Origin: Streptomyces coelicoflavus
GTDB taxonomy: Bacteria; Actinomycetota; Actinomycetes; Streptomycetales; Streptomycetaceae
NCBI RefSeq assembly: GCF_003112555.1
Contig: NZ_BEWB01000004.1
Span: 310,001 to 374,000, forward strand
DNA: 64,000 nucleotides
Reading direction: 5' to 3'
The translations under genes and the position numbers were made by a program. Positions 1-20,746 of this stretch are shown piece by piece (the stretch's first letter is position 1; the number at the start of each line of letters is the position of its first letter). Below the pieces are notes generated by a model. It saw only the letters and a list, made by a program, of their open reading frames with translations, was not told the DNA's origin and did not search any database.

Positions 1-1
1 G

Positions 2-739
2 GTCGCCGAGCGGATGCTGGTCACCTTCGACCGTACCCTCGCGCAGCGCAAGCTCACCGAGGCCAGGGACAGCAGCACCAGCATGTGGCCGGAGGTCTCC
101 TTCCTCACCGACATCCACCCGGTGGTGGAATGGCTGACGGACAAGGTCCTCGTCGAGTTCGGCCGCCAGGAAGCCCCGGTCATCACCACGCCGCACGTGG
201 ACAGCCCTGTCTTCCTGGTCCAGGGCATCCACTCCAACGCCCTGGGCCGCCCCACCGTGGTGCGCTGGATGGCCGTCACCGGGCTCGACGCCGACGGCAC
301 CGGCACACCCGAGGTGCGGCCCATGGCCGACGCGCTGCGCGATGCGAAGGTCGGCCCCCGGCTCGCCCGCACCGGCGGCCCGCGCGACCTGGACCGGCTC
401 CAGACCCTCGTGCCCGCCGCCGTCGCCGCGGCCCGCCACCACCTGGACGAGGGTAGGGCCCAGTGGGAGGAGCGGATCAGCGAGCCTCTCGCCGCCTACC
501 GCGCCCACGTCGCCCAGTGGCGCGCCGACTCCCTGCTGCCCGGAGTCACGGGCCGCCGCGAACGCGTCGTCGAGGAGACCGCCGACGAACTGGCCCGGCT
601 CCTCGACCAACTGCACACCACCGGCCGCCCGCTGCTGCGCGTCCTCGCCGTCCTCGCCCGCCCCGGCGGCCCGGACACCCCCGAAGCCGACGAGCCCGCA
701 GCCGACGCCCACCCGTCCGACGCCCAGGCGGAGAACTGA
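2..739 (+). CDS. C-terminal part of a probable SNF2-family helicase (DrmD-like), cut by the window edge
   Basis: The frame is open from the first bases of the window and ends with TGA one base before the GTG of the methylase gene, so the two are probably translationally coupled. About 245 residues are visible. They contain no helicase motifs, which would lie upstream. The assignment rests on position directly before a DISARM-type adenine methylase and on a general resemblance of the stretches FLTDIHPVVEWLTDK and VFLVQGIHSNALGRP to the C-terminal extension of SNF2 helicases in such operons. The end is a low-complexity acidic/proline tail (residues ~220-245). In DISARM the SNF2 protein (DrmD) acts with the methylase, restricting incoming DNA. 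It could instead be another helicase-associated protein. The family is inferred from context more than from sequence. Confidence 0.5.
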   Translation, partial: VAERMLVTFDRTLAQRKLTEARDSSTSMWPEVSFLTDIHPVVEWLTDKVLVEFGRQEAPVITTPHVDSPVFLVQGIHSNALGRPTVVRWMAVTGLDADGTGTPEVRPMADALRDAKVGPRLARTGGPRDLDRLQTLVPAAVAAARHHLDEGRAQWEERISEPLAAYRAHVAQWRADSLLPGVTGRRERVVEETADELARLLDQLHTTGRPLLRVLAVLARPGGPDTPEADEPAADAHPSDAQAEN

Positions 740-740
740 C

Positions 741-6320: not shown

Positions 6321-6506
6321 TCAGTTCTGGCCGGCGTAGGAGACGAAGTCGCTCCACGCGGCCGGGGAGAGGGCAAGTTCGGGGCTCCGCTGGTCCTTGG
6401 AGTCCCGGACGTGGATCGCGTGCGTGCCGTTCGCCACCTCGATGCAGTCGTCACCCTGCGAGCCGCTGTAACTGCTCTTGAACCAGGCCAGGTCGGACGT
6501 GTTCAT
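6321..6506 (-). CDS. DUF397 small protein of a WhiJ-type triad (61 aa)
   Basis: A 61-residue protein with the DUF397 pattern: LAWFKSSYSGSQGDDCIEVA near the N-terminus, a VRDSKD segment in the middle, and a C-terminal SPAAWSDFV. Its ATG overlaps the TGA of the upstream XRE gene (ATGA), so the pair is co-translated. In streptomycetes DUF397 proteins are nearly always encoded beside a DUF5753/XRE regulator, as in the whiJ and abaA loci that affect development and antibiotic production. They are thought to act with that regulator, though the mechanism is unclear. A longer frame reading in from upstream was rejected because it would overlap the XRE gene extensively. Confidence 0.85.
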   Translation of the reverse strand: MNTSDLAWFKSSYSGSQGDDCIEVANGTHAIHVRDSKDQRSPELALSPAAWSDFVSYAGQN

Positions 6507-7363
6507 AGCGCTCCTCGCAATCGCTTCAACAGGCCCAAGGAGTCCTCGGGGGTCAAGGCCTGCGAGCGCAGTTTCGCATACCGCTGCTGGAGCAGACTGA
6601 TCTCTTTCGCATGGGCGATCAGCCGTCCGTTCTGCTGCCCTTCGGAGTAGGCGAACCACTGGTTGTCCGGTGTCTCGGCCAGACGCATCGGCCCGTCCGC
6701 CCCCGCATGCGACGGCTGCCGCAGCGGCATCACCTGAAACTCCACATTCCAGTTCCCCTCGACCACCCCCAGCAACCGGTCAAACTGCTCCCGCGTCACC
6801 GCCTCCCCACCCGTCCACCGCTCCAGCACCGCCTGCTCCACAATGAAGCTGAACGCTGTCGGCGGCTTCCGCGTCACCGCCAGCAGCTCCTGCCGAGCCA
6901 TCCGCGCCGCGATCCGCTCCTCCAGCTCCTCCGGGTCGGGCAGCGGCGGCACGTTCAACGACACCGCCCGCGCGTACGCCTCCGTCTGCAACAGACCCGG
7001 CACCACCCGGCACTCGTAGGTGTACAGGCTGATTGCCGTCGCCTCCAGCCGAGCCCACTGCCGGAACCAGCTCGCCAGCCCCGCCTGCCGCGACAGATGC
7101 GGCGCCGCCTTCCGCAGTGCCCCCGTGTTGCCGAGGGCTTCCTCCGCGCGCTCCACGAAGTCCCGGTCCGGCATCCGGCGCCCCTGTTCAACCGAGGCGA
7201 CCGTGTGTTTGGAGAAGCGGACCAGGGCGCCGAACTCCTCGCGGCTCAGGCCCGCGTGCTCCCGCAGGGCCTGGACGACCGCGCCGAAGGTGCGCAGACT
7301 GTCCGACGCCCCCGGTTCCGCGCCGCTCGCCCCGGTACCGCCGTCCGTACATTCGTAGGCCAC
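6503..7363 (-). CDS. XRE-family regulator with DUF5753 domain (WhiJ-like), 286 aa
   Basis: The N-terminal helix-turn-helix lies at about residues 20-75 (FGAVVQALREHAGLSREEFG, then SKHTVASVEQGRRMPD). The rest matches the DUF5753 ligand/partner domain, including LEATAISLYTYECRVVPGLL, FIVEQAVLERW and WFAYSEGQQNGRLI. The GTG start at 7363 has GGGAGG nine bases upstream and gives the usual ~285-aa length; the same frame extends further upstream without a comparable ribosome site. It runs divergently from the ATP-binding gene and overlaps the DUF397 gene by ATGA. Such triads are numerous paralogues in Streptomyces. This copy sits inside a defence-type island and could regulate it, but the sequence does not show that. 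Confidence 0.85.
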   Translation of the reverse strand: MAYECTDGGTGASGAEPGASDSLRTFGAVVQALREHAGLSREEFGALVRFSKHTVASVEQGRRMPDRDFVERAEEALGNTGALRKAAPHLSRQAGLASWFRQWARLEATAISLYTYECRVVPGLLQTEAYARAVSLNVPPLPDPEELEERIAARMARQELLAVTRKPPTAFSFIVEQAVLERWTGGEAVTREQFDRLLGVVEGNWNVEFQVMPLRQPSHAGADGPMRLAETPDNQWFAYSEGQQNGRLIAHAKEISLLQQRYAKLRSQALTPEDSLGLLKRLRGAL

Positions 7364-7457
7364 CGTCGGCCACCTCCCGCGCACCGTCACCGCCCGTACC
7401 GCTTCTGGCTCGGCTCCATCGTCACGCGGAGTGACACGTACTGTCCACCGAATGTGT

Positions 7458-7480
7458 GCGTACGCTGACTCTGCGTACGC
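7458..7480. promoter_or_regulatory. Two copies of the palindrome GCGTACGC, 15 bp apart, in a divergent promoter region
   Basis: The self-complementary octamer GCGTACGC occurs at 7458-7465 and 7473-7480, separated by TGACTCT. It lies between the start of the XRE regulator and the start of the ATP-binding gene. The spacing of about 1.5 helical turns suggests a dimer-of-dimers operator, most simply for the neighbouring XRE protein. No experimental motif is known to me. Confidence 0.45.
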
Positions 7481-7526
7481 GGGTCGGCGCTGGCGAACCG
7501 CCCGAGCCCGCAGCCAGATTGGGCAT

Positions 7527-7985
7527 ATGACACCACCGCCCACCCCCGCGACCCACCAGGCGCCCGTCACCGTACGTGTGTTCACCCAGCGGTTCAGTTC
7601 CACCCCCCGTGGAGCACGCCTCGCCCGCCGGCTTGCCCTGCACCAGCTCGACACCTGGGGCGTCCCGCACGGCAGTGAGGCGTCCGACACCGCCGCTCTG
7701 CTCGTCGCGGAACTCGCCGCCAACGCCGTCACGCACGGCCGGGTGCCCGGCCGTGACTTCGAGGTCACCGTCAAGCTCCTCGGCCGGACCCTGCGCATCG
7801 AGGTCTCCGACACCCGAGGTGAGCTCCGGCCCCCGGCTCCCGGCGTCGCCCGCCCCGAAACGGAGCCGCTCGCGGAGAACGGCCGGGGCATGCTCCTCGT
7901 GGAGGCGCTCGCCGACCGGTGGGACGTACTCGACCGCGTCCCCGTCGGCAAGACGGTCGTCGCCGAGCTGGACCTGTCGCGCTGA
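7527..7985 (+). CDS. RsbW/SpoIIAB-like ATP-binding protein (HATPase_c), 152 aa
   Basis: A stand-alone GHKL ATPase domain. The N box is visible in LLVAELAANAVTHG, the G1 region in IEVSDTRGE, and the G2 region in ENGRGMLLVEALADRW. Proteins of this type act as anti-sigma serine kinases or as the third member of WhiJ-type triads in streptomycetes. I start it at ATG 7527 because the residues before it (from 7431) are not domain-like and would cover the GCGTACGC operator. No strong ribosome site is visible, so a leaderless or alternative start is possible. It is divergent from the XRE/DUF397 pair and is followed within 70 bp by the DUF262 gene, which seems to have its own promoter. Confidence 0.8.
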   Translation: MTPPPTPATHQAPVTVRVFTQRFSSTPRGARLARRLALHQLDTWGVPHGSEASDTAALLVAELAANAVTHGRVPGRDFEVTVKLLGRTLRIEVSDTRGELRPPAPGVARPETEPLAENGRGMLLVEALADRWDVLDRVPVGKTVVAELDLSR

Positions 7986-8054: not shown

Positions 8055-9341
8055 ATGGCGGACCTGGAGGGCAGTGCCGACGGCCGGGGCGCCGGGCGGG
8101 ACCGGTCGGCGGGGAGCCGCGGGTACGCCGTCGCGGCGGACGTCGACGACCCGGACGCGCTCTTCCTACCGCTGGGCGCACCCCTCGAGATCGGGTCCGA
8201 CGGCCGGCCGACCGGTGTGGAGCTTGAGCTGCCCGCCGACGAGGAGGACGAGAGCTACACCGACGCCGACGGCATCTCCGCCCCCTTCCGGCCCGACAGC
8301 ATCAAGATCCACACCGAGACCACCACCGTGGACCTGCTGCTGTCCCGGCTGCGGGAGGGCATGATCGACCTGGCGCCGGACTTCCAGCGCCGGGCCGGGG
8401 TCTGGAAGGACCGAGACCAGAGCAGGCTGATCGAGTCGCTGCTGCTGCGCATCCCGATCTCCAACTTCCACATGGCCCAGGACGGCGACGACAAGTGGGC
8501 CGTGGTGGACGGAGTGCAGCGGCTCACCGCCATCGCGCGGTTCATGGAGCCTGGGCTCACCGGACTGGGGCCGCTCACCCTCCGGGGCCTGGACTACCTC
8601 TGGAACTTCCACGGCAGCACGTACCAGGACCTGACCGGCCGGCTGAAGATCCGGCTGCGCGAGACCCAGTTGACGGTCCACATCATGCAGCAGGGTACCC
8701 CGGAGGTCGTCAAGCACAACGTGTTCTCCCGGATCAACACCACGGGCCTGCCGCTGACACCGCAGGAGCTGAGGCACGCGCTGGTGCGGGGAGTGGTCCG
8801 GGAGTACCTCGCGGACCTCGCCGAAGACCCGGCGTTCGGCGAGGCCACACGGTGGAGCGTGTCCAACGAGCGGATGGCCGACCGGGAGATGGTGCTGCGC
8901 TTCCTCGCCTTCCGCCTGAGCAATCCGGCCGAGCACACGGCGAAGGACTTCGACCAGTTCCTCACCAGCACCATGTACGACGTCAACGCCCTCACGGAGG
9001 AGCGGCGGAAGCAACTGGCACGGGAGTTCCGGGTGGCCATGCGGTGCGCGCGGGAGCTGTTCGACGAGCATGCCTTCCGCAAGTGGCGTGGCGGTAAGCG
9101 CAGTTCTCCCGCCATCAACAAGGCACTGTTCGAGACGATCTCCGTCCATCTGGCACTTCTCGACGATCACGAGCGGGCCAGGCTGGTAGCGTCGCGCATG
9201 ACGGTGCGCTCCAGGTTCGTCGAGCTCATGGACGACTGGGACTTTGACCGGTCGATCTCCGTGGGCACCGGGGACCCGGCGAGGATCCGCACCCGCTTCC
9301 AGCACGTGGCACGACTGTTCCGAGGGGTGGCCGAACAGTGA
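8055..9341 (+). CDS. DUF262 (GmrSD/ParB-like) protein, 428 aa
   Basis: The DUF262 core is clear at about residues 90-170: IDLAPDFQRRAGVWKDRDQS, SLLLRIPISNF, then WAVVDGVQRLTAI. The last is the family's DGQQR motif with the first Q replaced by V. DUF262 has a ParB/sulfiredoxin-like fold. In GmrSD and BrxU it hydrolyses NTPs to drive cleavage of modified phage DNA, with an HNH (DUF1607) domain for cutting. No HNH motif is visible here, so this copy may be a sensor or regulator and not a full nuclease. A disordered acidic N-terminus precedes the domain. The stop overlaps the GTG of the ATPase gene by four bases (GTGA), which implies coupled expression. Confidence 0.8.
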   Translation: MADLEGSADGRGAGRDRSAGSRGYAVAADVDDPDALFLPLGAPLEIGSDGRPTGVELELPADEEDESYTDADGISAPFRPDSIKIHTETTTVDLLLSRLREGMIDLAPDFQRRAGVWKDRDQSRLIESLLLRIPISNFHMAQDGDDKWAVVDGVQRLTAIARFMEPGLTGLGPLTLRGLDYLWNFHGSTYQDLTGRLKIRLRETQLTVHIMQQGTPEVVKHNVFSRINTTGLPLTPQELRHALVRGVVREYLADLAEDPAFGEATRWSVSNERMADREMVLRFLAFRLSNPAEHTAKDFDQFLTSTMYDVNALTEERRKQLAREFRVAMRCARELFDEHAFRKWRGGKRSSPAINKALFETISVHLALLDDHERARLVASRMTVRSRFVELMDDWDFDRSISVGTGDPARIRTRFQHVARLFRGVAEQ

Positions 9342-10525
9342 TCGACCGACTGACGCTGCGCAACTTCAAGGCGTTCCAGGACATGTCACTGCCCCTGGGC
9401 CTCCTCACCCTCCTCACCGGACTGAATTCGTCCGGCAAGAGCAGCGTCCTCCAGTCGATCGCACTGCTGCGCCAGTCGTACGAGACGGGCAGCCTGGAGA
9501 TCTCCAGGCACCGGCCTGAAGCACAGAGCCCTGACCTCCGTCTGGACCGCCCCAACCAGGGCTTCCTGCTCAACGGAGAACTCGTGGGCCTCGGCACCGG
9601 GGACGACGTTCTGCACGAGGACTTCGCGGGAGACAAGGCGCGGATCGGTCTCGGCGTCGACGAGGGACCGTACCGCTACGGCTGGACCGTCGGATACGAA
9701 CTCGAGCAGAACCTGCTGCCCCTGTTGGACGTGGACCTGCCGTCCACCTCGGAGGGAGTCGCCGCGCCCACAGGGCCCGAGGCTGTGGCTCCCTCGTTCC
9801 TCACCGCGCCCTTCCAGTACCTGCACGCCGACCGAATCTCGCCCGCCGAGTTCTACCCGCGCGACCATTACGCGGTCATCGGCCGCGGCTTCCTCGGCGT
9901 ACGCGGCGAACACACCGTCAACTTCCTGCGCCATCACGCCCGGGACGAGGTGCCCGAGGGACCCCTGCATCACCCGAAGGCCGCATCCGACCTCCTGATC
10001 GACCAGGCCACCGCCTGGATGGGCGACCTGTGCCCGGGCGTGGACATCCAGGCGCACGCCATCGAGGGCGCCGACGCCGTGCGCCTCTCGTACGGCTTCC
10101 AGGGCGCGCTCGGCCCCACCCGGCGCCGCCGTCCCAGCAACGTCGGCTTCGGCCTCACCTACGTCCTGCCGATCGTGGTGGCCTGCCTCTCGGCCCGTCC
10201 CGGCTCCCTGGTGCTCCTGGAGAACCCCGAGGCGCACCTGCATCCGCAGGGTCAGACGCAGATGGCCACGCTGGCCGCAGCGACCGCCGCGCAGGGCGCG
10301 CAAGTGATCATGGAGTCGCACAGCGACCACGTCATCAACGGCGTGCGGCTCGCCGTCAAGCAGGGACGGATCACCCCTGCGCAGGCGGTGTTCCACTACT
10401 TCCGCGGCGACGGAACCGGCGTGGAGGTCGTCACCCCTCGGGTCGACTCGGACGGCATGCTCGACCAGTGGCCCACTGGGTTCTTCGACGAGCTGGAGAA
10501 CACGCTCGACCAGCTCATCGGCTGA
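9338..10525 (+). CDS. AAA/SMC-like ATPase with C-terminal DUF3696, 395 aa
   Basis: An OLD-like ABC-type ATPase without a TOPRIM nuclease domain. Walker A is GLNSSGKSS at about residues 28-36. The signature/Walker B region is SNVGFGLTYVLPIVVA followed by LVLLENPEAHLHPQGQ. The D-loop/His switch is VIMESHSDHVINGVRL. The last ~50 residues (AVFHYFRGDGTGVEVVTP onward) correspond to DUF3696. Such ATPases are sensors or engines in several phage-defence systems, paired with a separate effector. It is coupled to the DUF262 gene by a GTGA overlap and followed after 51 bp by an unknown gene. The DUF262 plus DUF3696 pairing recalls the three-gene Menshen system; I am recalling that, not showing it. Confidence 0.85.
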   Translation: MIDRLTLRNFKAFQDMSLPLGLLTLLTGLNSSGKSSVLQSIALLRQSYETGSLEISRHRPEAQSPDLRLDRPNQGFLLNGELVGLGTGDDVLHEDFAGDKARIGLGVDEGPYRYGWTVGYELEQNLLPLLDVDLPSTSEGVAAPTGPEAVAPSFLTAPFQYLHADRISPAEFYPRDHYAVIGRGFLGVRGEHTVNFLRHHARDEVPEGPLHHPKAASDLLIDQATAWMGDLCPGVDIQAHAIEGADAVRLSYGFQGALGPTRRRRPSNVGFGLTYVLPIVVACLSARPGSLVLLENPEAHLHPQGQTQMATLAAATAAQGAQVIMESHSDHVINGVRLAVKQGRITPAQAVFHYFRGDGTGVEVVTPRVDSDGMLDQWPTGFFDELENTLDQLIG

Positions 10526-10576: not shown

Positions 10577-11521
10577 GTGCCGCAGCTGTTCCTGAACGAG
10601 AAGTCCTGCGAGACGACGGCGGACCCGGACCGGGTCAACCGCGCCATGACCGAGCTGGTGAAGGCTATCGTCGCGGTCGCGAGGGTGGACCGGCCAGGCA
10701 CGGTGCTGGTAGCCCGGGAGCCCGTGAACGCCTTACGGCTGGCGAAGGATCATCCCATCGCCAAGTGGGTCGGGAGTCCGGGGGCCAAGGAGCTGTGGCA
10801 GCGGCTGCTGCTGATGCAGACCAAGTACCCGCACGAGGACGTCTACCCCGACGGGGAGACCTTCTCCGACGTCGCCTACAGCCACGAGGGCGTACCGGTG
10901 ACCGGACTCGGCGCCGCGCACCTGATGGGCGGCGCCGGTGTGTCCCTGCTGCTGGAGCCCCGCTGGAACGCGGACCGGGTTTTCCTCCGACGGGAAGAGC
11001 TCCTCGACGAGGAGGACGGCGGATCGGCGTTCTCTGAGGTCGAGGTCCCGCACGCCGCCACCCGCGAGCACGTCGACACGCACCTGCCCTGGATCCGAGA
11101 GGAGACGCAGGCCGCACTGCGCGACAACCTGAGCGGCATCCGCACCGGAGCCGAGCTGTGGGAACAGTGCCCGGACCTCTTCCCTCACCTGTCTTTCCTG
11201 CCGCACGTCGAAGAGCAGCTGCGGGGCCTGAAACAGTACTGGGTCCACCCGGTCCGCAAGCGCCTCGCGGAGATGGACCGCGCGATCCAGCTCTGGGACG
11301 CCGCGGGCGGCCTCGACGAGCCGCAGTGGGGTTCGTTCGTGACACCGGAACACCCGACCCGCAAGCGTGACTACTGCGAGTTCACCGACATCGACGGCAC
11401 GCAGCAGTACTTCGACACCCACCTGCGCTTCACGCCCGGCGCGGGGCGGCTGCACTTCCGGTTCCTGAAGGCCACCCGCAGGGTGCACATCGCCCATATC
11501 GGACACAAGCTCGGCAGCTGA
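10577..11521 (+). CDS. Unknown protein of the defence run, candidate partner or effector (314 aa)
   Basis: I do not recognise a named family. The GTG start at 10577 is preceded by GGAGGGGGAG. The N-terminus begins with a hydrophobic strand (PQLFLNEKS) and continues as an alpha/beta region with AREPVNALRLAKDHPIAKWV. The middle (~residues 85-150) contains SHEGVPVTGLGAAHLMGGAG. The last ~60 residues form a separate module with CEFTDIDG, YFDTHLRFTPGAGRLHF and VHIAHIGHKL. This tail pattern seems to me a recurrent small domain at the ends of defence-linked proteins, but that is an impression. It is tightly packed between the DUF3696 ATPase and the giant helicase. A nuclease or toxin role is possible, though no catalytic motif is certain. 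Confidence 0.6.
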   Translation: MPQLFLNEKSCETTADPDRVNRAMTELVKAIVAVARVDRPGTVLVAREPVNALRLAKDHPIAKWVGSPGAKELWQRLLLMQTKYPHEDVYPDGETFSDVAYSHEGVPVTGLGAAHLMGGAGVSLLLEPRWNADRVFLRREELLDEEDGGSAFSEVEVPHAATREHVDTHLPWIREETQAALRDNLSGIRTGAELWEQCPDLFPHLSFLPHVEEQLRGLKQYWVHPVRKRLAEMDRAIQLWDAAGGLDEPQWGSFVTPEHPTRKRDYCEFTDIDGTQQYFDTHLRFTPGAGRLHFRFLKATRRVHIAHIGHKLGS

Positions 11522-11609: not shown

Positions 11610-14600
11610 GTGCGTCCCACTCTCGCCGCCGACCAGGTACGGGCCAGCCTGAGCCAGTACCTCGCGACGACGTACGCGCTGGCCGACGAGAGCACCCGCC
11701 GCGCCCTGGAGAACTTCCTGGGCGACCCCGAGGACGGCATCTTCCGCGGCCCCTACCTCCGCGTCCGTACCCCCTTCCGCACCGCCGTCGGCACGGACTG
11801 GAAGCGGCATCTGACCTGGCACCCCGAGCTGACCCCGTACCGGCACCAGGAAGCCGCCTGGGAGCGGCTGTCTACCCTGCACGGCACGGCCCGGCCCACC
11901 CTCGTCACCACCGGCACCGGATCCGGCAAGACCGAGTCGTTCCTGGTCCCGATCCTCGACCACTGCTACCGCCAGCGGCTGGCCGGGCAGGAGGGCGTCA
12001 AGGCGATCCTGCTCTACCCGATGAACGCCCTGGCCACCGACCAGGCCCACCGCATCGGCAAGCGGCTGAACGACCCGAAGGACACCCGGCTGCGGGAGGC
12101 CGGGGTGGGCGCCGGGCTCTACATCGGGGACCGGCCGTCGCAGGAGTTCAAGCAGGCCAATCCGGCGATCACCGTGGACCGGGACGAGATCCGGCGGACC
12201 ATGCCGGACATCCTGATCACCAACTACAAGATGCTCGACCTGCTCCTGCAACGGCCCGAGGACCAGCGGCTGTGGCAGGACTCGGCGCTCGCCTACGTCG
12301 TCCTCGACGAGTTCCACACCTACGACGGCGCCCAGGGCACGGACGTCGCCATGCTGCTGCGCCGCCTCGGCTCGGTCACCGGGCTCGCCGAACCCGGACG
12401 GCCACTGGGGCCGGTCTGCCCCGTCGCCACGTCGGCCACCCTCGGCGAGAACGGCACCGGCGCCACCGACAGCGGCGCGCGGGGCGCGGCGGCCCGCCCC
12501 GGCGGCGGCCCCGGCATGCTGGAAGTCGCCGAGCAGGTCTTCGGCGTGCCGTTCCCGCCCGACGCGGTCGTCGGGGAGGACCGGCGCTCCACCAAGGACT
12601 TCACCGGCGAGAGCGACTTCAGCCTGCCGTTCCCCTCGCCCCAAGAGGTCGCCGGACTCGGCGACCCCACCCGCGACGCGGGCGCGATGGACGACCTCGT
12701 CACCGCCTTCACCGGGCTGAGCGGGCCGAGCCCGGAGGATCTCGGGGCCGTGCTGCGCCGGCACCGGCTGACCGCCGCCGTCCTCGAGATTCTCGACGGC
12801 ACGCCCAGGACGATCGCCGAGATCACCGAGGTGCTGCCCCGCTACGCCTACCACTGGGGCATGGCCGTGCAGCAGCAGCCGCGGGTCGCCGCCCAGGGCC
12901 TGGCCCGGTACATCGCCCTCCTCTCGTACGCCCGAGACCCGGACCACCCCGGACGGCCGCTGCTGTCCATCGAGATCCACCACTGGGTACGCTCGGTCTC
13001 CCGTGTGCTGCGGGGCATCAGCGCCGCCCGCGCCGAGTTCCGCTGGGACGACGAACGGGTGACCTCCGGCGGTGCGCTGACCCGCAAGGACCCCGGCCCG
13101 GCCGCCCAGCCGTCCCCGTACGACGGGGAGGGACCCGCCGTACCCCTCGACGCCGCCGAGCAGGCCGCCGTACCGGCCGACGACAGCGCGCCCCCGCCCG
13201 CCGAGGTTTTTCTGCCGGCCGTGTTCTGCCGCGAGTGCGGACGGTCCGGCTGGGCCGCGTACTCGCCCGAGGTAGACCCCGCCGAGCTCGAACTGAACGC
13301 CACGAAGATCCGCCGCGCCTCCGTCGGCCGGGACAAGCGTCGGGTGCGCAACATGATCGCCGCGACTTCGCGAGAGGTGCACGAGGCCGCCTTCGGGGCG
13401 GGGGCGGAGCGTCGGCGCGGCGGCCCCTCCGTCATGGTGCTGGAGGGCCACGGCGGGCGGCTTCGGCCCCTGTCACCCGACGCCGACTTCACCGCCCCGA
13501 CGGACGGCGAGGGACCGCGCCGACCACGCACCCTTCACAACGCCGCGTTCGTCCACGCCGACCTCGACGGCGACCGGGCCGCCGAACGCGACCAGTGCCC
13601 CGCCTGCCGCACCTTCAACTCCGTCCGCTACCTCGGCACCGGCCTCGCCGCGCTCGCCGCCGCCGCCGTCACCCAGCTCTTCACCGGCGGCGAACTCGAC
13701 AAGAACCTGGGGGAGGACAAGACCCTCCTCTTCAACGACTCCGTACAGGACGCCGCCCACCGCGCCGGATACGTCGCCAGCCGCTCGTACACCTTCTCGC
13801 TCCGTGCTCTGCTCGCCAGCCGCATCGACGAGGACGAGCCGATCACGCTGAACGACCTGGCCGCCGACCTGATGGCGGACGTCGTCGACAGCAAGGCCGT
13901 ACAGGCCGCCGTCATCCCACCCGACCTGCACCTGGTCAGGGGTGTGGACACGCTGCTCTCCGGCCGCAGCCGCGGCTCCCGGCCCACCTGGGAACTGATC
14001 GCGCAACGCCTGGCGTTCGCCACCGTGATGGAGTTCGGCCTGCGCTCCAGGCAGGGCCGCACCCTGGAACTGACCCGCACCGTCGCCGCCGACGTGCCCC
14101 TCCAGGACCCCGACGCCGTGGCGGAACTCGTACGGGAGACACTCCTCACCACGCCGGGAGAGATCGCCCTGCCCGACGGGTCCGTGCCCGGATACAACCG
14201 GCATATCGGCTTCGTCCGGGGTCTGTTGGAGCGCATGCGCATCCGGGGAGCTGTCCGGCACGCCTGGCTGGACCCCTGGCTGGACCAGGCCGGGGTCCGT
14301 CGATGGGCGATCTGGGGCGGACGCGAGAACGGGATGCCCGCCTTCCCCCGGGGGGTCTCCGCGCCCGCCTTCCTGCTGGGCAGCCCCAAGCAGGGCAGCG
14401 AGGATTTCGACGTCCTCACCGGACGGCTCGGCTGGTACCAGGACTGGGCCGTACGCTCCCTGGGCCTGCGCCCGGAGGCCGCCGCCACGTTCCTGAGTCG
14501 GCTGCTGCCTGCGCTCGCCGAGGTCGGTGTCGTCTCCGCGCGCACCGCGCTCGACGGTGCCACCCGCGTCTACGGACTCCAGCCCGGCCACATCCGGGTG

Positions 14601-17600
14601 CGCAGACTCGCCGACGACACGCTGCCCGACGCCACCGCGCACTGCCCGCGCTGCTTCTGGGAACAGACCATCCACCCCGACCTGGCCGGCCAGTGGCACG
14701 GTCAGCCCTGCCCCCGCTACCGCTGCGGCGGCACTCTCGGCACCGGCCGCGACCTGGACAGCGGACTGAGGCAACGGGACTACACCGACGACTTCTACCG
14801 GCGCATGTACCGCGAGGCCGGCGTCTTCACCATCAACACCGCCGAACACACCGGCACCCTCAGCCGCGCCCGGCGCGAGGCGGTCGAGAAGGCCTTCCGC
14901 GACGGCACCCGCGTCCACTACGCCAACCCGCAGGTCCTGTCCTGCACCCCCACCCTCGAACTCGGCATCGATATCGGCGACCTCTCGGCGGTCGTCCTCG
15001 CCTCACTGCCCAAGGGACCGGCCAACTACATCCAGCGGGTGGGCCGCGCGGGCCGCTCCACCGGCAACGCCTACCTGCTCACCATGGTCGACCGGGGGCC
15101 GCGCGACCGCTACTACCTCGAAGAACCCCGCCTCATGATCGCCGGGGAGGTCCGGCCGCCCGGCTGCTACCTGTCCGCGGCCGAGATCCTGCGCCGACAG
15201 TACCTTGCCCACCTCCTCGACCTCGCCGGCGCCGGACGGCTGACCGCCCCCGACGGGACACCGCTGCGCCCGCTGCCCGGGCGGGCCACCGAACTGTTCG
15301 GCGCCTCCGCCTGGCAGGCCGACTTCACCGAGGCCGCGCTGGCCGACGGCGAACGACTCGTCCGGGGCTTCCTGGACCTGTTCCCCCCGTACGACGAGAG
15401 CCGCGGCACGGGCGTCAGCCCGCAGGCCCGTACCGCCCTCACCGCCTACGCCACCGACCCCGGCGAGGAGGGACTGGCCGGCGCTCTGGTCGCCGCGTGC
15501 AGGCGCTGGGAGGAGCGCCGCGCGGACCTCCAGCGCCGCACCGAGGCCATCGACCGGGCGCACGGGCTGCTCGTCGCCGGCGACCCCGACCACGCACGGC
15601 AGGGGCGCGAGTTGCGGGCCGAGCGGCGCGAGGTAGGCCGCATCTCCCGGGAGATCAGCCGTACCACCGCGCACGGCGCCCTGGTCGACCTCGGCCTGCT
15701 GCCGAACTACAGCCTCATCGACTCGGCCACCGAGCTGGAGGCCACCCTCACCTGGACCGAGAAGACCGCCGACGGCGGCCGAGAGAACCACAGCAAGACC
15801 CTCCGCCACAGCCGCCCCGCCCGCCTCGCCCTCACCGAGTTCGCGCCCGGCAACCACTACTACGTCCAGGGTTACAAGCACCGCGTCACCGGAGTGGACA
15901 TCGGCGGGCCCGGCCGTCCCGCCTGGCTCTGGTGGCGGGTGTGCCCCGACTGCGGCCACGTCCGCACCCACCTTGCCGAGGACGACGCGTCCTCCTGCCC
16001 CCGCTGCCGGTCCGCGGCCATCGGCGACGTCGGCTGCCTGCACAAGGTGCTCGTGCCGCGCCGCGTCACCTCCCGGGACGAACGCGACGACGTCCGCGTC
16101 CGCGACGACAGAGACGAACGGGAGCGGCGCCACTACACCGTCGTCCCCGCCGTGGACATCGACGCCGACGACGTCGAACAGGCCTGGAAACACGAACACG
16201 CCACCTTCGGCTGGGAGTTCACCCGGCAGGCGCACGTCCGGCACCTCAATGTCGGCGCCGCCCGCGTGGACGGCGGTGCGGACACCGCCTTCGCCGGACA
16301 GGAGGTCCGCCTCAACCCCTTCTGGGTCTGCGACGCCTGCGGCTACGCCGACCCGGACGGCGGACCCGCCGCGCACGACGCCGGCGACTCCTCGGCACAC
16401 GCCAAGTACCACCGGCCGTGGTGCCCCAGACGGCGCGCCGGAGCCGACGCCGTACGACGCGGCGAGCGGGTGCTGCTCGCCTACGAACTGCGCACCGACG
16501 CACTGCGCATCCTCATCCCCGCCGTCACCGCCCACACCCGGGAACGGCTCGCGTCCTTCAAGGCGCTGCTGCTGGCCGGCATCGCCCGCAGCTACGGCGG
16601 CGACCCCGACCATCTCGCGGTCGTCACCGACTCCATGCCCGAGGAACGCGGTGAGACCCCGCTCCGCCGCCACTTCCTCGTCCTGTACGACACGCTCCCC
16701 GGCGGCACCGGCTACCTGCACCGCCTCGCCGGCCGGGAGGGCCTCAAGGGCGTCCTGGACGAAGCCCGGCAGGTCATCGAGACGTGCGTGTGCGTCGGCC
16801 AGGGCCGGCCCGCGTGCCACCGCTGCCTGCTGCGGCACGTCACCGACGGCGAGTACGAACTCGTCTCCCGCGAGCACGCCCTCGACATGCTCGGCGACCT
16901 GTTCGGTCGCACCGCGGACCACTGGAGCGTCGGACCGGTGGCCACCGCTCGAGACATCACCCTGGTGCACCAGGTGGAGAGCGAGCTGGAGGCACTCTTC
17001 CGGCGCGGGCTGCTCGAATGGGCTGAGCGCGTGGACGACGTCAGCGTCCGCACCGCTCTCACCCCCGACGGCACCCGGGACACGACCCTGCGCTTCACCG
17101 CGCCCGACGGCACCGTCCGCGGCTGGCAGATGGAAACCCAGACCCCGCTCGACTACACCCGGCCGGACGTGGTCTTCCGCAGCACCGACGACGACCACCG
17201 GGTAGCCGTCTACCTCGACGGCTACCGCTACCACGCGAGTCCCGAGCACCTCACCGCCGAGGTCGACGCCGTCAAGCGCGCCAGGTTGCGCGCGGAGGGC
17301 TGGCAGGTCTTCCAGCTCACCTGGGACGACGTACAGGCCTGGACCGGCCGGACCACGCCCCGGGCCGACCCGCCGTGGAAGCCGTATCCGAACACCGCGC
17401 AGCAGACAGCCATGGACGTCCACCGGCGCATGCACGCCGGAGACACCCGCGACCTGCCGAGGCTGGTGTGGGCCAACCCGGTCGAGACGCTCATCGGCTA
17501 CCTCACCGACCCCGACCCCGACGCCTGGCGGCGCCGCACCCAGAGCGCCCTCGCGGGCTTCGCCGCCGTGTCGGCGACCAGCAGGGCCCTGGCCGCCGGC

Positions 17601-18443
17601 AAGGAGACCGGGCGCAGGATCAGCGAGGCGCTGCACGGTCACCGGCTGGCCCAGGGACAGGGCGCCGTCCAGGTCATGGCGACGCGGGACGCCTCGGGGT
17701 GCCCGCTCACCATCGCGCTCGACCTGCGCGGGGGCCAGAGCGCGGCTGCCTGGACGGCGCTGACCGTCCTCGACGACAGCGCGGACACGGTCAACGCCGA
17801 CGAGACCGCCCACCGCAGACGCTGGCAGGCGTGGCTTTACTGGAGCAACCTGCTTCAGTTCCTCGACGCCGGGGAGGGCGACGGGGTCCAGCTCACGACC
17901 GGCATGCTCCCCGCGTTCGACCCGGCCGAGCTGGCGGTCACCGGCGGCGCTGGATGGCTCAGCTCACGGCGGCACCGGCAGGAATCTGTTCCGGATGGAC
18001 GGCAGCCGATCGCCGGATCGCAGTCGGTCCTCGGGCGGCAGCCGGTCGCGGAGGGGCAGGGCTCCGAGGAGGCTCCGGCCGCCGTGCGCGACCCCGCCTG
18101 GGACGAAGTCATCGAGTACCTCGTCGACGAGCCGGGCCTGCTGGCCCTCACCAGGGCGCTCGCCGACCGGGGCCTGCCCGCCCCGGAGGCCGGCTACGAA
18201 CTGGGAACGGCCGCCTGGCCCGCCGAACTCGCCTGGCCCGGCCCCCGCGTGGGCATCGTCCTCGCGCACCGACCGGACCCCGCCACCCGACGCGACATCG
18301 ACGCCGAACAACGGGACCGGGCCTACCGGGACGCGGGCTGGCAGGTCCGTACCGCGGTGGAATGGGACCTCGACGAACTCGCCGCGCTGGCCGGCCACGA
18401 CGCGGACAGAGCAACGCACGACCACGAGGAGAACGAGCGATGA
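11610..18443 (+). CDS. Giant DEAD/DEAH-box helicase with DUF1998 and nuclease-like C-terminus, 2277 aa
   Basis: Superfamily 2 helicase. Walker A TGTGSGKTES is near residue 100, a DEAH-box variant LDEFHTYDGA near 232, and motif VI QRVGRAGRSTG near 1141. Cysteine pairs that look like zinc ribbons occur near 540 (CRECG), 664 (CPACR), 1012 (CPRC), 1445-1467 and 1574. The DUF1998 cysteine cluster (CVCVGQGRPACHRC) is near 1725. Residues ~1864-1911 (VYLDGYRYH, then KRARLRAEGWQVFQLTWDDV) resemble Vsr/DUF559 nucleases, and a second, poorer copy lies at ~2214-2257 (RDRAYRDAGWQVRTAVEWDL). The organisation is closest to DruE of Druantia or fused DrmA-DrmB of DISARM, which move along DNA to inspect or process invading DNA. 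The GTG start has AAGGAGG at ideal spacing. It overlaps the next gene by ATGA. Confidence 0.85.
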   Translation: MRPTLAADQVRASLSQYLATTYALADESTRRALENFLGDPEDGIFRGPYLRVRTPFRTAVGTDWKRHLTWHPELTPYRHQEAAWERLSTLHGTARPTLVTTGTGSGKTESFLVPILDHCYRQRLAGQEGVKAILLYPMNALATDQAHRIGKRLNDPKDTRLREAGVGAGLYIGDRPSQEFKQANPAITVDRDEIRRTMPDILITNYKMLDLLLQRPEDQRLWQDSALAYVVLDEFHTYDGAQGTDVAMLLRRLGSVTGLAEPGRPLGPVCPVATSATLGENGTGATDSGARGAAARPGGGPGMLEVAEQVFGVPFPPDAVVGEDRRSTKDFTGESDFSLPFPSPQEVAGLGDPTRDAGAMDDLVTAFTGLSGPSPEDLGAVLRRHRLTAAVLEILDGTPRTIAEITEVLPRYAYHWGMAVQQQPRVAAQGLARYIALLSYARDPDHPGRPLLSIEIHHWVRSVSRVLRGISAARAEFRWDDERVTSGGALTRKDPGPAAQPSPYDGEGPAVPLDAAEQAAVPADDSAPPPAEVFLPAVFCRECGRSGWAAYSPEVDPAELELNATKIRRASVGRDKRRVRNMIAATSREVHEAAFGAGAERRRGGPSVMVLEGHGGRLRPLSPDADFTAPTDGEGPRRPRTLHNAAFVHADLDGDRAAERDQCPACRTFNSVRYLGTGLAALAAAAVTQLFTGGELDKNLGEDKTLLFNDSVQDAAHRAGYVASRSYTFSLRALLASRIDEDEPITLNDLAADLMADVVDSKAVQAAVIPPDLHLVRGVDTLLSGRSRGSRPTWELIAQRLAFATVMEFGLRSRQGRTLELTRTVAADVPLQDPDAVAELVRETLLTTPGEIALPDGSVPGYNRHIGFVRGLLERMRIRGAVRHAWLDPWLDQAGVRRWAIWGGRENGMPAFPRGVSAPAFLLGSPKQGSEDFDVLTGRLGWYQDWAVRSLGLRPEAAATFLSRLLPALAEVGVVSARTALDGATRVYGLQPGHIRVRRLADDTLPDATAHCPRCFWEQTIHPDLAGQWHGQPCPRYRCGGTLGTGRDLDSGLRQRDYTDDFYRRMYREAGVFTINTAEHTGTLSRARREAVEKAFRDGTRVHYANPQVLSCTPTLELGIDIGDLSAVVLASLPKGPANYIQRVGRAGRSTGNAYLLTMVDRGPRDRYYLEEPRLMIAGEVRPPGCYLSAAEILRRQYLAHLLDLAGAGRLTAPDGTPLRPLPGRATELFGASAWQADFTEAALADGERLVRGFLDLFPPYDESRGTGVSPQARTALTAYATDPGEEGLAGALVAACRRWEERRADLQRRTEAIDRAHGLLVAGDPDHARQGRELRAERREVGRISREISRTTAHGALVDLGLLPNYSLIDSATELEATLTWTEKTADGGRENHSKTLRHSRPARLALTEFAPGNHYYVQGYKHRVTGVDIGGPGRPAWLWWRVCPDCGHVRTHLAEDDASSCPRCRSAAIGDVGCLHKVLVPRRVTSRDERDDVRVRDDRDERERRHYTVVPAVDIDADDVEQAWKHEHATFGWEFTRQAHVRHLNVGAARVDGGADTAFAGQEVRLNPFWVCDACGYADPDGGPAAHDAGDSSAHAKYHRPWCPRRRAGADAVRRGERVLLAYELRTDALRILIPAVTAHTRERLASFKALLLAGIARSYGGDPDHLAVVTDSMPEERGETPLRRHFLVLYDTLPGGTGYLHRLAGREGLKGVLDEARQVIETCVCVGQGRPACHRCLLRHVTDGEYELVSREHALDMLGDLFGRTADHWSVGPVATARDITLVHQVESELEALFRRGLLEWAERVDDVSVRTALTPDGTRDTTLRFTAPDGTVRGWQMETQTPLDYTRPDVVFRSTDDDHRVAVYLDGYRYHASPEHLTAEVDAVKRARLRAEGWQVFQLTWDDVQAWTGRTTPRADPPWKPYPNTAQQTAMDVHRRMHAGDTRDLPRLVWANPVETLIGYLTDPDPDAWRRRTQSALAGFAAVSATSRALAAGKETGRRISEALHGHRLAQGQGAVQVMATRDASGCPLTIALDLRGGQSAAAWTALTVLDDSADTVNADETAHRRRWQAWLYWSNLLQFLDAGEGDGVQLTTGMLPAFDPAELAVTGGAGWLSSRRHRQESVPDGRQPIAGSQSVLGRQPVAEGQGSEEAPAAVRDPAWDEVIEYLVDEPGLLALTRALADRGLPAPEAGYELGTAAWPAELAWPGPRVGIVLAHRPDPATRRDIDAEQRDRAYRDAGWQVRTAVEWDLDELAALAGHDADRATHDHEENER

Positions 18444-20746
18444 CGGTCACCGGCGCGCCGAGGACGGGCGTGACGCTGCGCCTGCTGGACAAGGCCGACA
18501 AGGAGATCGTCAAACTGGACCGCGCGGTCCTCGGGGCGTTCTACAAGTTCCAGCACGACTTCCGCCGCAACCCCGACGCCGGCGGATTCAACCTCAAGCA
18601 GCTGGAAGGCCACGACCGTCTCTGGTCGGCACGCGTCAACCGCGAGTGGCGGGCCCTGATGATTCGCCTCGGCGGTGACGACTGGCTGCTCGTCTCGGTC
18701 AAGCACCGCAGCCACGTCCACAAGAACCTGGACCGGCTCAACTACGGCATCAACCACATCACCGGCGCCATCGAATACGTCGACCTCCAGGTCGTCGAGG
18801 AGAGCGTGCTGCGCCGCGGACTCACCCCGCCCGCCGCTCCAGTCCCGGCTCCGACGCCCGTGCCCGCTCCCGAACCGGCCCCTCCGAAGCCGTTGGAGGA
18901 GCCGGAAGAACCCCTCTTCGGGACTTACACCGACGAGCAGCTCGCCGATCTCGGCGTCGCCGAACCGCTCATCCCCATCGTCCGGAAACTCACCACGGAC
19001 GACGAACTGCTCGGCCTCGCCGAGTACGCGCCCCGCCACACCGGGGAGGTCCTCCTCCGGCTGCGCGACGGTGCTTCCTACGAAACGGTCATGGACGAGG
19101 TTACCGCGCCCGTCGCGGTCGAAGAGCCGGAGAGCAACCTCGACCCCGCCGACTGGCAGGCAGCCGTCGACCGCTCACAGACCGTGGCGATCACCGACGA
19201 CGAGTTCCTGCAGAGCATCCTGGAGGAAGGCGACTTCGGGCGCTGGAAGATCTTCCTCCACCCCACCCAGGAGAAGCTGGTCCACCGGCGCTACTCCGGC
19301 CCGGCCCGGGTCGGTGGTGGCCCGGGAACGGGCAAGACCATCGTCGCCCTCCACCGTGTCTGCCATCTGGTGCGACAGCTCCCACCAGGCCACACCAAGC
19401 CTGTCCTGTTCACCACGTTCAATCGGAACCTTGCCGCCGACCTCCGCTCCCGGCTCCTCTCCCTCGGCGGACCCGACGTACTGGCCAGGGTCGACATCGC
19501 GCACGTCGACCAACTCGCCACCCGCATCGTCAGCGAGGCCGACCCGGGCAACGCAAAGCGGCGCATCGACGACACGGCGGCGCTCCGCGAGTGGCGAGAC
19601 CTGCTGGTGGAGGCGGGAGAGACCCGCTGGAGCGCCGAGTTCCTCAGCGACGAATGGAACCAGGTCATCCTCGGCCAGGCCGTGGCCTCCCGGAGCGACT
19701 ACTTCACCGTGCGGCGCGCCGGCAGGGGGCGCAGCGTCACCCGCGCCGAGCGCGCCGGCATCTGGCAACTCGCCGAACGCTTCACGCAACGGCTGGAGAC
19801 CAAGGGGCTGGAGACCCACCGCCAGGTCGCCGAACGGGCGGCGCGCCTGGAGATGGCCCGCAGGGCGAGGATCGACAGACGGTCACAGGAACGCGAGGAC
19901 CGCGGCGGCCTGGACAACCTCCACGTCGAGGCCGGCTCCGGCGCCCGACTGCGCCATCGGTACCGGCACATCGTGGTCGACGAGGCCCAGGACCTCAGCG
20001 CCGCCCACTGGAAGATGCTGCGCTCCATGGCGCCGTCCGAGGCCGACGACATCTTCCTCGTGGGCGACACGCACCAGCGGATCTACGACAACCAGGTCAC
20101 CCTCGGCAGCCTCGGTGTCCACATCCGCGGCCGGTCCTCCCGGCTGACCCTCAGCTATCGCACGACCCGGGAGATCCTCCGCGACGCGATCCGGGTGCTG
20201 GGCGACGCCGACTACGACGACCTGGACGGTGACAGCGACACCCTCGCCGGGTACCGCTCGGTCCTGCACGGCCCGGCTCCGTCGTTGCGCGGTGCGCGGA
20301 GCTGGGACGAGGAGATGGACCTCGTCGTGGAACAGCTGCGGGCCTGGCAAGACGTGCCCCGCGAGTCCACGGCGATCTGCGTCCCGACCAACGACATGGT
20401 CACCCAGCTCGCCGAACGCCTCACCCGGCGCGGCATCACCCCGACCGAGATCACGCAGGACGGGCCGCGCGGTGATCAGGGCGTCCACATTGGCACCATG
20501 TACCGCTTCAAGGGACTGGAGTACCGCTGCCTGATCATCGCCGGGGTGGCCGAGGGCCTCGTCCCCCGCACCTCCGTGGACACGTGGGAGCACACCGACC
20601 CGAGCCGCCATCGGCGAGAGCTGCACCGGGCGCGCTCGCTGCTCTTCGTCGCGGCCACCCGCGCCCGTGACGCCCTTGCCATCACCTGGCACGGAGAACC
20701 GAGTCGCTTCCTGGCGCCGTTGCTCCCGCATCGAAACGGTACCTGA
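18440..20746 (+). CDS. UvrD/REP-type helicase with N-terminal RelE/ParE-like domain, 768 aa
   Basis: Residues ~25-100 look like a RelE/ParE fold (VLGAFYKFQHDFRRNP, then LWSARVNREWRALM, then LLVSVKHRSHVHKNL). A proline-rich linker (~135-160) follows. The helicase core has Walker A GGGPGTGKT near 292, TTFNRNLAADL, motif II HIVVDEAQDLSAAHW near 514, motif III VGDTHQRIY, TLSYRTTREIL, and C-terminal motifs GTMYRFKGLEYR (~682) and FVAATRARDAL. This is a superfamily 1A 3'-5' helicase arrangement. The ATG start overlaps the stop of the giant helicase (ATGA), so the two helicases are made together. The RelE-like module could be an RNA-cleaving toxin held by the helicase, or simply a nucleic-acid-binding domain. 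Catalytic residues cannot be confirmed by eye. Confidence 0.85.
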   Translation: MTVTGAPRTGVTLRLLDKADKEIVKLDRAVLGAFYKFQHDFRRNPDAGGFNLKQLEGHDRLWSARVNREWRALMIRLGGDDWLLVSVKHRSHVHKNLDRLNYGINHITGAIEYVDLQVVEESVLRRGLTPPAAPVPAPTPVPAPEPAPPKPLEEPEEPLFGTYTDEQLADLGVAEPLIPIVRKLTTDDELLGLAEYAPRHTGEVLLRLRDGASYETVMDEVTAPVAVEEPESNLDPADWQAAVDRSQTVAITDDEFLQSILEEGDFGRWKIFLHPTQEKLVHRRYSGPARVGGGPGTGKTIVALHRVCHLVRQLPPGHTKPVLFTTFNRNLAADLRSRLLSLGGPDVLARVDIAHVDQLATRIVSEADPGNAKRRIDDTAALREWRDLLVEAGETRWSAEFLSDEWNQVILGQAVASRSDYFTVRRAGRGRSVTRAERAGIWQLAERFTQRLETKGLETHRQVAERAARLEMARRARIDRRSQEREDRGGLDNLHVEAGSGARLRHRYRHIVVDEAQDLSAAHWKMLRSMAPSEADDIFLVGDTHQRIYDNQVTLGSLGVHIRGRSSRLTLSYRTTREILRDAIRVLGDADYDDLDGDSDTLAGYRSVLHGPAPSLRGARSWDEEMDLVVEQLRAWQDVPRESTAICVPTNDMVTQLAERLTRRGITPTEITQDGPRGDQGVHIGTMYRFKGLEYRCLIIAGVAEGLVPRTSVDTWEHTDPSRHRRELHRARSLLFVAATRARDALAITWHGEPSRFLAPLLPHRNGT

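Follow-up and report, generated by a model that had tools for sequence, protein, structure and literature searches.

We analyzed a 64,000-nucleotide stretch of the Streptomyces coelicoflavus genome (assembly GCF_003112555.1, contig NZ_BEWB01000004.1, positions 310,001 to 374,000; hereafter the window) that contains a long helicase gene, armC, on the forward strand. The open reading frame (ORF) at 11610..18443 starts with a GTG codon and encodes 2277 amino acids, the same extent as in a first-pass annotation made from the sequence alone. Judged from the ORF and its Pfam and PADLOC matches, the product is a YprA-like DEAD/DUF1998 helicase with nuclease-type domains at its C-terminus. Pfam placed a DEAD-type RecA1 domain at residues 78-279 (11841..12446; motif reading put Walker A at 102 and DEFH at 233), a Helicase_C-type RecA2 domain at residues 1071-1150 (14820..15059), and a DUF1998/MZB zinc-binding domain at residues 1651-1740 (16560..16829), all on the forward strand. 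Because the neighboring genes make up the armA, armB, and armD set, we assign the locus to ARMADA type II, and the ORF is very probably ArmC, the helicase-nuclease of that anti-phage system (armA-armB-armC-armD).

The 3′ end of armA occupies 1..739 (+), the gene beginning left of the window (G000:C4:307671; L012:11672-14740) and encoding a 1022-residue SNF2/BrxHII-DrmD-like helicase (Pfam SNF2-rel_dom, 9.3e-15, and Helicase_C; PADLOC DrmD, 9.7e-77, and BrxHII, 5.4e-46). One base past its stop, a GTG codon starts armB (741..6275, +), which encodes a very large PglX/IIG-like N6-adenine methyltransferase. On the longer ORF 342-6275, PADLOC reported REase_MTase_IIG (1.6e-263) and DrmMI (2e-45), with no PglX model among the matches listed, and Pfam matched Eco57I (3.5e-12) and N6_Mtase. 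The armD gene (18440..20746, +) overlaps armC at ATGA and encodes a UvrD/GajB-like helicase (Pfam UvrD-helicase, 2.8e-21; PADLOC GajB, 1.1e-25) with a weakly RelE/ParE-like N-terminal segment (ParE_like, E 0.0069, 16.8 bits, cut-off 24.4). As an anchor we used the locus of Escherichia coli ATCC 8739, one of the strains used in PMC12458937, taken from another record of that strain, where it adjoins a DEAD helicase gene near tRNA-Phe. ArmA to ArmD were collinear between the two, with identities of 33% (1001 columns), 33% (N-terminal 1008 columns), 28% (2008 columns), and 32%, respectively. The order armA-armB-armC-armD is kept in the window and in L012, the genes being non-contiguous, with 5.3 kb between armB and armC. 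Directly upstream of armA, left of the window, lies a Ser/Thr protein kinase gene (L012:10425-11624). The product matches the PADLOC kinase models for mad6 and PD-T4-6. Of 13 fetched upstream pieces, 10 had a kinase match ahead of armA, as did 12 loci of another set.

The best PADLOC models for ArmC were DruE3 (7.3e-93) and DruE1 (1.4e-86), as would be expected if the protein were a Druantia-type DruE and not ArmC. We give that reading almost no credence. PADLOC-DB 2.0.0 dates from 2023 and the ARMADA preprint from 2025, and since the library is the older of the two we take the DruE label as the nearest model available. The gene partners are ArmA, ArmB, and ArmD, and the tail of Druantia III consists of PLD domains (PMC12458937), whereas that of the window protein is Vsr-like.

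It was this tail that the first-pass annotation had singled out, as one intact and one decayed copy of a PD-(D/E)XK-type domain related to Vsr, DUF559, or MTES, which would make the protein its own nuclease. The strings on which it relied lie at residues 1868-1875 (YLDGYRYH), 1892-1908 (RLRAEGWQVFQLTWDDV), 2237-2246 (RAYRDAGWQV), and 2252-2257 (WDLDEL), all C-terminal to DUF1998/MZB. We examined conservation across a set of distinct ArmC proteins (122 sequences, each ≥1900 residues), gathered by whole-protein similarity (best 80 of 575 confirmed), from plasmid matches, or by a search with the copy 1 domain (69 rows, 40 of them fetched besides the window); four loci with a broken ArmC (L108, L114, L008, L125) and four duplicates had been dropped. 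In copy 1, a Vsr/EDxHD-like nuclease domain by conservation and fold (16947..17354, +; residues ~1780-1915), E1794, D1853, G1871, H1875, and R1890 were invariant in all 122, while D1870 was Asp in 113 and Glu in 9, and D1886 was Asp in 119 and Asn in 3; these figures lean upward because some rows were chosen by copy 1 itself. A set of 78 rows, made up of the window and 77 loci gathered by whole-protein similarity and not by the copy 1 domain, is unaffected, and the same columns stand out there at a mean column identity of 22%. The residues are conserved in hosts from the Actinomycetota, cyanobacteria, Clostridia, and E. coli, and ArmC of ATCC 8739 carries every one of them.

The active sites of MTES and DUF559 nucleases follow the patterns E-x-K and E-x-D, and the D-G-x3-H pattern is of Vsr type. 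The active-site pair of Vsr is His69-Asp51 (PMC11879112), and EDxHD enzymes are said to use metal-bound water, as restriction enzymes do (PMC3943268). Judged by its residues, the copy 1 active site is of the Vsr/EDxHD type (D-G-x3-H) rather than that of MTES or DUF559. The Glu of the MTES/DUF559 E-x-D pattern is replaced by Tyr or Phe in 121 of 122 ArmC proteins. The Pfam match of copy 1 to MTES_1575 (residues 1837-1906, E 2e-4) scored 21.8 bits, below the curated cut-off of 38.2 bits; among the 78 homologous tails, MTES_1575 matched 16 and Vsr one at E≤0.01. We considered and rejected the idea that copy 1 is dead since its MTES/DUF559 Glu is a Tyr: Vsr-type sites do without that residue, and D, D, H, and D are kept.

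An AlphaFold model of residues 1770-2277 (m46dfd0ab352a; 508 residues, 78 rows) had a predicted local distance difference test score (pLDDT) of 89.0 and a predicted template modeling score (pTM) of 0.73. In a VIA comparison that covered mainly model residues 21-199 (protein residues ~1789-1970), the top row was the endonuclease-like 3hrl (Z 7.2, root-mean-square deviation (rmsd) 2.5, 94/94 aligned), and further rows included the EDxHD domain of I-Bth0305I (3r3p, Z 6.0) and the Hjc resolvases 4tkd (Z 4.9) and 2eo0 (Z 4.8). The secondary structure of the model, taken with 3hrl and 3r3p, indicates a Vsr-like alpha-beta core. Three negative results were not used as evidence: no Vsr entry was among the 50 VIA rows listed for copy 1; a copy 1 profile found nothing in the PDB under E 0.2, Holliday junction resolvases scoring 0.8-0.9; and a profile of the tail found in the PDB only designed or engineered armadillo-type repeats, on the helical middle region. 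Support from the model for a Vsr-like fold in copy 1 is moderate, and it gains weight because the catalytic-type residues are conserved.

Between the two copies lies a middle domain (17382..18029, +; residues ~1925-2140) that corresponds in position to the domain called "inactivated EEP" in the ARMADA preprint, is well modeled within the tail model, and has conserved positions N2080 (118/122) and Q2083 (99/122). Copy 2 follows at 18057..18440 (+; residues ~2150-2277), a degenerate Vsr-like domain by fold and conservation. Folded alone (AlphaFold model mf408d0fc158c), it had a pLDDT of 89.7 and a pTM of 0.77, and VIA aligned it with 3r3p (Z 7.3), Vsr (1cw0, Z 6.8, rmsd 3.0, 89 aligned; 1vsr, Z 5.8), PvuRts1I (Z 5.7 and 5.3), and AbaSI (Z 5.3). 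W2209 (118/122), G2195 (115), G2243 (114), and W2244 (110) are kept. Across the same 122 homologues copy 2 has no D-G-x3-H pattern and no invariant His or Asp; its acids are E2197 (Glu in 113, Asp in 4) and position 2206 (Glu in 74, Asp in 36). Because the His/Asp set is missing though the domain is conserved, we read copy 2, from its alignment and its model, as a Vsr-like domain lacking the known catalytic set.

The description of the tail as one intact and one decayed copy fits these results. The repeat that had been seen by eye held up at the level of the fold, where both copies are Vsr-like with moderate scores; in a profile-profile comparison (78 sequences each) copy 1 and copy 2 were not related beyond chance (probability 0.13%, P 0.33), and the repeat is therefore not a detectable one in sequence. 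A restriction-endonuclease fold and conserved acids in homologues had been named beforehand as checks, and neither spoke against the claim, the AlphaFold models resembling Vsr-type folds at a moderate Z of 5-7 and copy 1 keeping its acidic residues across the 122 homologues. The finding as stated is known, since an architecture of active Vsr, inactive EEP, and inactive Vsr is already described in PMC12458937, where the type II ArmC is given a C-terminal "predicted active Vsr" that in many cases precedes an EEP and a Vsr domain, both inactivated. The tail of ArmC had been read correctly, and the protein is a further member of that described architecture.

Defense is abolished when any one of the four arm genes is deleted and is lost in most mutants of the Walker and methylase motifs, in two of them only partly, and cells survive infection (PMC12458937). 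DruE is a helicase-nuclease effector that binds and cleaves long DNA, and its pair of inactive and active tail nuclease domains is repositioned on oligomerization (PMC13192584). On the strength of the conserved residues and the model, we predict that ArmC is its own nuclease, and by analogy with DruE we infer that it is a helicase-nuclease effector in which cutting falls to copy 1 and copy 2 assists in assembly. A YprA-type motor, made up of RecA1/RecA2 and a DUF1998 canopy, would load on single-stranded or replicating phage DNA that lacks the ArmB methyl mark and feed it to copy 1, which would nick or cut it using metal-bound water. Copy 2 might serve in assembly or in holding DNA, as the active/inactive pair of DruE suggests, and ArmD and ArmA would process or translocate the DNA.

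Several observations weigh against this picture. At E≤0.001, Foldseek matched neither the 508-residue tail model nor the copy 2 model to any PDB entry; the top rows for the former (THO complex, TM 0.16) were set aside as noise. VIA scores of Z 6-7 fall in a range that the tool calls common, the copy 1 list also includes frataxins and ubiquitin-conjugating enzymes at Z 4-6, and three of the nine copy 2 rows at Z≥4.7 are mitoribosomal chains (7.3, 7.2, and 4.7). The two kept acids in copy 2 may leave it a residual metal-binding role. Discrimination by the ArmB mark is presumed in the scheme, and the Ser/Thr kinase and regulator genes that travel with the locus have no part in it. We found no nuclease-site mutant of any ArmC in the available text of PMC12458937, and cleavage by ArmC is thus a prediction.

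In a rival reading, copy 1 keeps the Vsr pocket and binds without cutting, as a clamp on DNA ends or single-stranded DNA for the helicase, with cutting left to the RelE-like part of ArmD, to the Menshen genes that lie between armB and armC, or to host nucleases. The sequence match of copy 1 to nuclease families is weak, and a Vsr-like fold can persist without activity, as in FASTKD4, where mutation of D523, a putative catalytic residue, left the target mRNA unaltered (PMC11879112). We nevertheless regard this as improbable: binding alone would not call for a strictly conserved catalytic set, and hosts as diverse as Actinomycetota, cyanobacteria, Clostridia, and E. coli preserve five catalytic-type residues in copy 1, whereas copy 2 of the same chains is without the set. 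The residues E1794, D1853, D1870, H1875, and D1886, with their E. coli equivalents, give a precise, family-wide set for the predicted nuclease activity, the one ARMADA activity that PMC12458937 predicted and for which its available text yielded no mutation.

In the window, a cassette of regulatory genes and then an entire Menshen system separate armB (end 6275) from armC (11610). The cassette includes a small ORF at 6321..6506 (−), whose translation we take to resemble DUF397, an XRE-type helix-turn-helix (HTH)/DUF5753 regulator at 6503..7351 (−; start approximate, ORF 6503-7951; DUF5753 1.1e-42, HTH_31 1e-13), and an anti-sigma-like HATPase_c_2 ATPase at 7431..7985 (+; PF13581, 1.4e-13). An ORF at 6611-7468 (+) was rejected as a gene between armB and nsnA, the opposite strand encoding the HTH/DUF5753 protein. 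Menshen follows on the forward strand. Its first gene, nsnA (8055..9341), encodes a DUF262/GmrSD_N protein with a VVDGVQR motif (PADLOC NsnA, 8.1e-124; GmrSD_N, 2.6e-19); nsnB (9338..10525) encodes an AAA_15/AAA_21 and DUF3696 ATPase by Pfam (PADLOC NsnB, 1.7e-112); and nsnC (10577..11521) matched PADLOC NsnC (7.4e-96) and no Pfam family. The three are contiguous, with a 4-base overlap between nsnA and nsnB and a 51-base gap between nsnB and nsnC.

We also measured the junctions between arm genes in distinct loci that showed both flanking genes, from where the upstream ORF ends to where the alignment of the next gene begins, a measure by which short gaps are overstated. Gaps of at least 1 kb occurred in 34 of 86 armB-armC junctions and in none of 122 armC-armD junctions, and in 1 of 57 armA-armB junctions; this last count is somewhat biased because long-slot loci often have armA out of range, a bias from which the armC-armD count is free. 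Gaps under 200 bases were found at 48/86 armB-armC and 114/122 armC-armD junctions. For 13 loci with armB out of range we fetched ~20 kb more upstream sequence and found armA and armB in 12, with slots of 9.6-22.7 kb. With both sets combined, the armB-armC gap was at least 1 kb in 46 of 98 loci, among which are near relatives (L046-L048, L131/L156, L006/L159). The armB-armC junction is a recurrent insertion slot. On an ArmC tree (FastTree, 122 rows, 92 labeled), there are at least 16 changes between the slot and the compact state, and the slot has therefore been filled or emptied repeatedly; the tree has long branches, scores L009 (215 bases) as compact, and has the slot state known for all but 27 of the 122 rows. 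In 32 of the 46 slot loci, ArmB and ArmC distances correlated across the slot (rho 0.71), a value that none of 999 permutations reached.

Menshen lay between armB and armC in 20 loci. In 14 it was found in one piece (the window, L044, L046-L053, L084, L085, L086, in which nsnA was not detected, and L108, in which armC is broken), and in 6 after the upstream fetch (L043, L054, L056, L060, L061, L078); a lone NsnB-like gene in L062, L063, L068, and L094 was left out of the count. In a search of 394 Streptomycetaceae genomes, 66 had a match to the copy 1 domain (E≤0.001) and 39 a match to NsnB (E≤1e-20). Of 27 NsnB proteins of at least 54% identity, 18 had a copy 1 match no more than 15 kb away, one of these (G257) adjoining a short ArmC remnant; of 12 with at most 42% identity, none did. 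For 17 of the 20 Menshen loci, ArmC distances tracked those of NsnA (rho 0.90) and NsnB (0.83), values reached by none of 999 permutations; common descent of linked genes can account for this agreement, and for that between ArmB and ArmC, as well as cooperation can.

The cargo of other loci is varied, and much of it, though not all, is defense-like. We scanned 20 of the larger slot proteins, from 18 loci, including L074 (armB out of reach) and L010 (gap <1 kb), against PADLOC at E≤1e-5 or E≤1e-8, and 15 were matched. The cargo names are provisional because AAA and helicase models match broadly. They include HEC-01 (L057, L077, L081), the GmrSD/HEC-06 type (L155, L160), ShosA (L120), and PDC-S08 (L119). 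Between the HATPase gene and armC, L059 and L062 carry a caspase (Peptidase_C14) fused to a Mokosh-like AAA_11/AAA_12 helicase, and the slot of L054 holds Menshen together with a DISARM-like DrmA/DrmB pair. HTH and HATPase genes also occur in L077, L081, and other loci. Larger genes in or near the slot had no library match in L074 (785 residues; Pfam and PADLOC), L131 (1264 residues; Pfam), L138 (283 residues; PADLOC), and L067 (698 residues; PADLOC), and these are candidates for unknown genes.

Such variety is what one would expect if the armB-armC insertions were passive defense-island noise with no functional link to ARMADA, a reading to which we give close to an even chance. Five of the 20 scanned proteins had no PADLOC match, one of them a GH81 glycosidase (L066), and Menshen also occurs away from ArmC, as do the remaining 9 of the 27 closer NsnB homologues and all 12 of the more distant ones. 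Set against this are the preference of insertions of at least 1 kb for armB-armC over the other two junctions and the tracking of Menshen and ArmC distances, for which shared descent alone could suffice. As a tentative alternative, possible though somewhat short of an even chance, ARMADA type II would be a chassis whose halves, kinase-armA-armB and armC-armD, frame an exchangeable slot for defense cargo, and in one Streptomyces lineage Menshen would have become a lasting part of a cooperating composite in which ArmB modifies, ArmC and ArmD unwind and cut, and NsnABC sense and kill. In our main reading, the armB-armC junction of this lineage carries cargo, here Menshen, which could provide a further or reserve line of defense that has a sensor of its own. 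If the slot is a real site of exchange, ARMADA loci could be mined by position alone for unknown defense genes, and the Menshen-bearing lineage would offer a natural test of cooperation between nested systems.

The nesting of Menshen in ARMADA was less expected than the architecture of the tail. No report of a cargo slot in ARMADA or of Menshen inside it was found in the open-access papers searched or in the available text of PMC12458937, and the terms Menshen, Nsn, Streptomyces, and kinase had zero occurrences in a term search of its main text. Compared with ARMADA type II of E. coli NCTC 12900 and ATCC 8739 (PMC12458937), the locus has the same four genes in the same order, and an ArmC with the same DEAD, Helicase_C, and DUF1998 domains and the same tail, in which an active-looking Vsr is followed by a middle domain and then by an inactive Vsr-like one; it differs from the system as described there in the 5.3 kb insert (HTH/DUF5753, HATPase, Menshen) between armB and armC and in the Ser/Thr kinase gene upstream of armA. 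As a whole, the locus is a variant worth a bench test.

Among other defense systems, class 1 DISARM shares with this locus a DrmD-like helicase, a DrmMI-like methylase, and a DUF1998 helicase module. To our knowledge, Druantia III has no methyltransferase partner. The nearest nuclease folds of the ArmC tail are Vsr/EDxHD enzymes (3r3p for both copies; Vsr, PvuRts1I, and AbaSI for copy 2), which share the D-G-x3-H pattern with copy 1. The known members are, as far as we know, stand-alone enzymes, whereas the ArmC domain is fused behind a helicase of ~1750 residues. DISARM differs in splitting the helicase and DUF1998 between two genes and in encoding its PLD nuclease, DrmC, separately (PMC12458937). 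DruE of Druantia III resembles ArmC as a YprA-like helicase with inactive and active tail nuclease domains (PMC13192584) and differs in that these are PLD nucleases (PMC12458937, PMC13192584) and in its DruH partner (PMC13192584). Menshen as described (PMC10952713) likewise pairs a DUF262 gene with an OLD/AAA-type partner; the window copy differs in being placed inside an ARMADA operon, and a Pfam scan of the window NsnB showed no TOPRIM domain. The closest parallel to the slot cargo is found in BREX, where extra nuclease or OLD-type genes, as auxiliary or backup effectors, are flanked by core genes of another system (PMC12839542).

Three further observations concern the surroundings of ARMADA genes. 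On a Tsukamurella plasmid (L004), ARMADA stands beside a DUF1998 gene with a helicase and a second UvrD helicase, and armC is annotated there as two pieces. Just downstream of armD in the window, the reverse strand encodes an ~508-residue fusion of an XRE HTH and an EPSP-synthase/MurA-type domain (21473-23002; EPSP_synthase 8.7e-42, HTH_3 1.3e-14). In the host genome, an open frame of 1953 residues contains a second MTES_1575 domain, which scores strongly (81.9 bits; G000:C9:288052-288330; L001).

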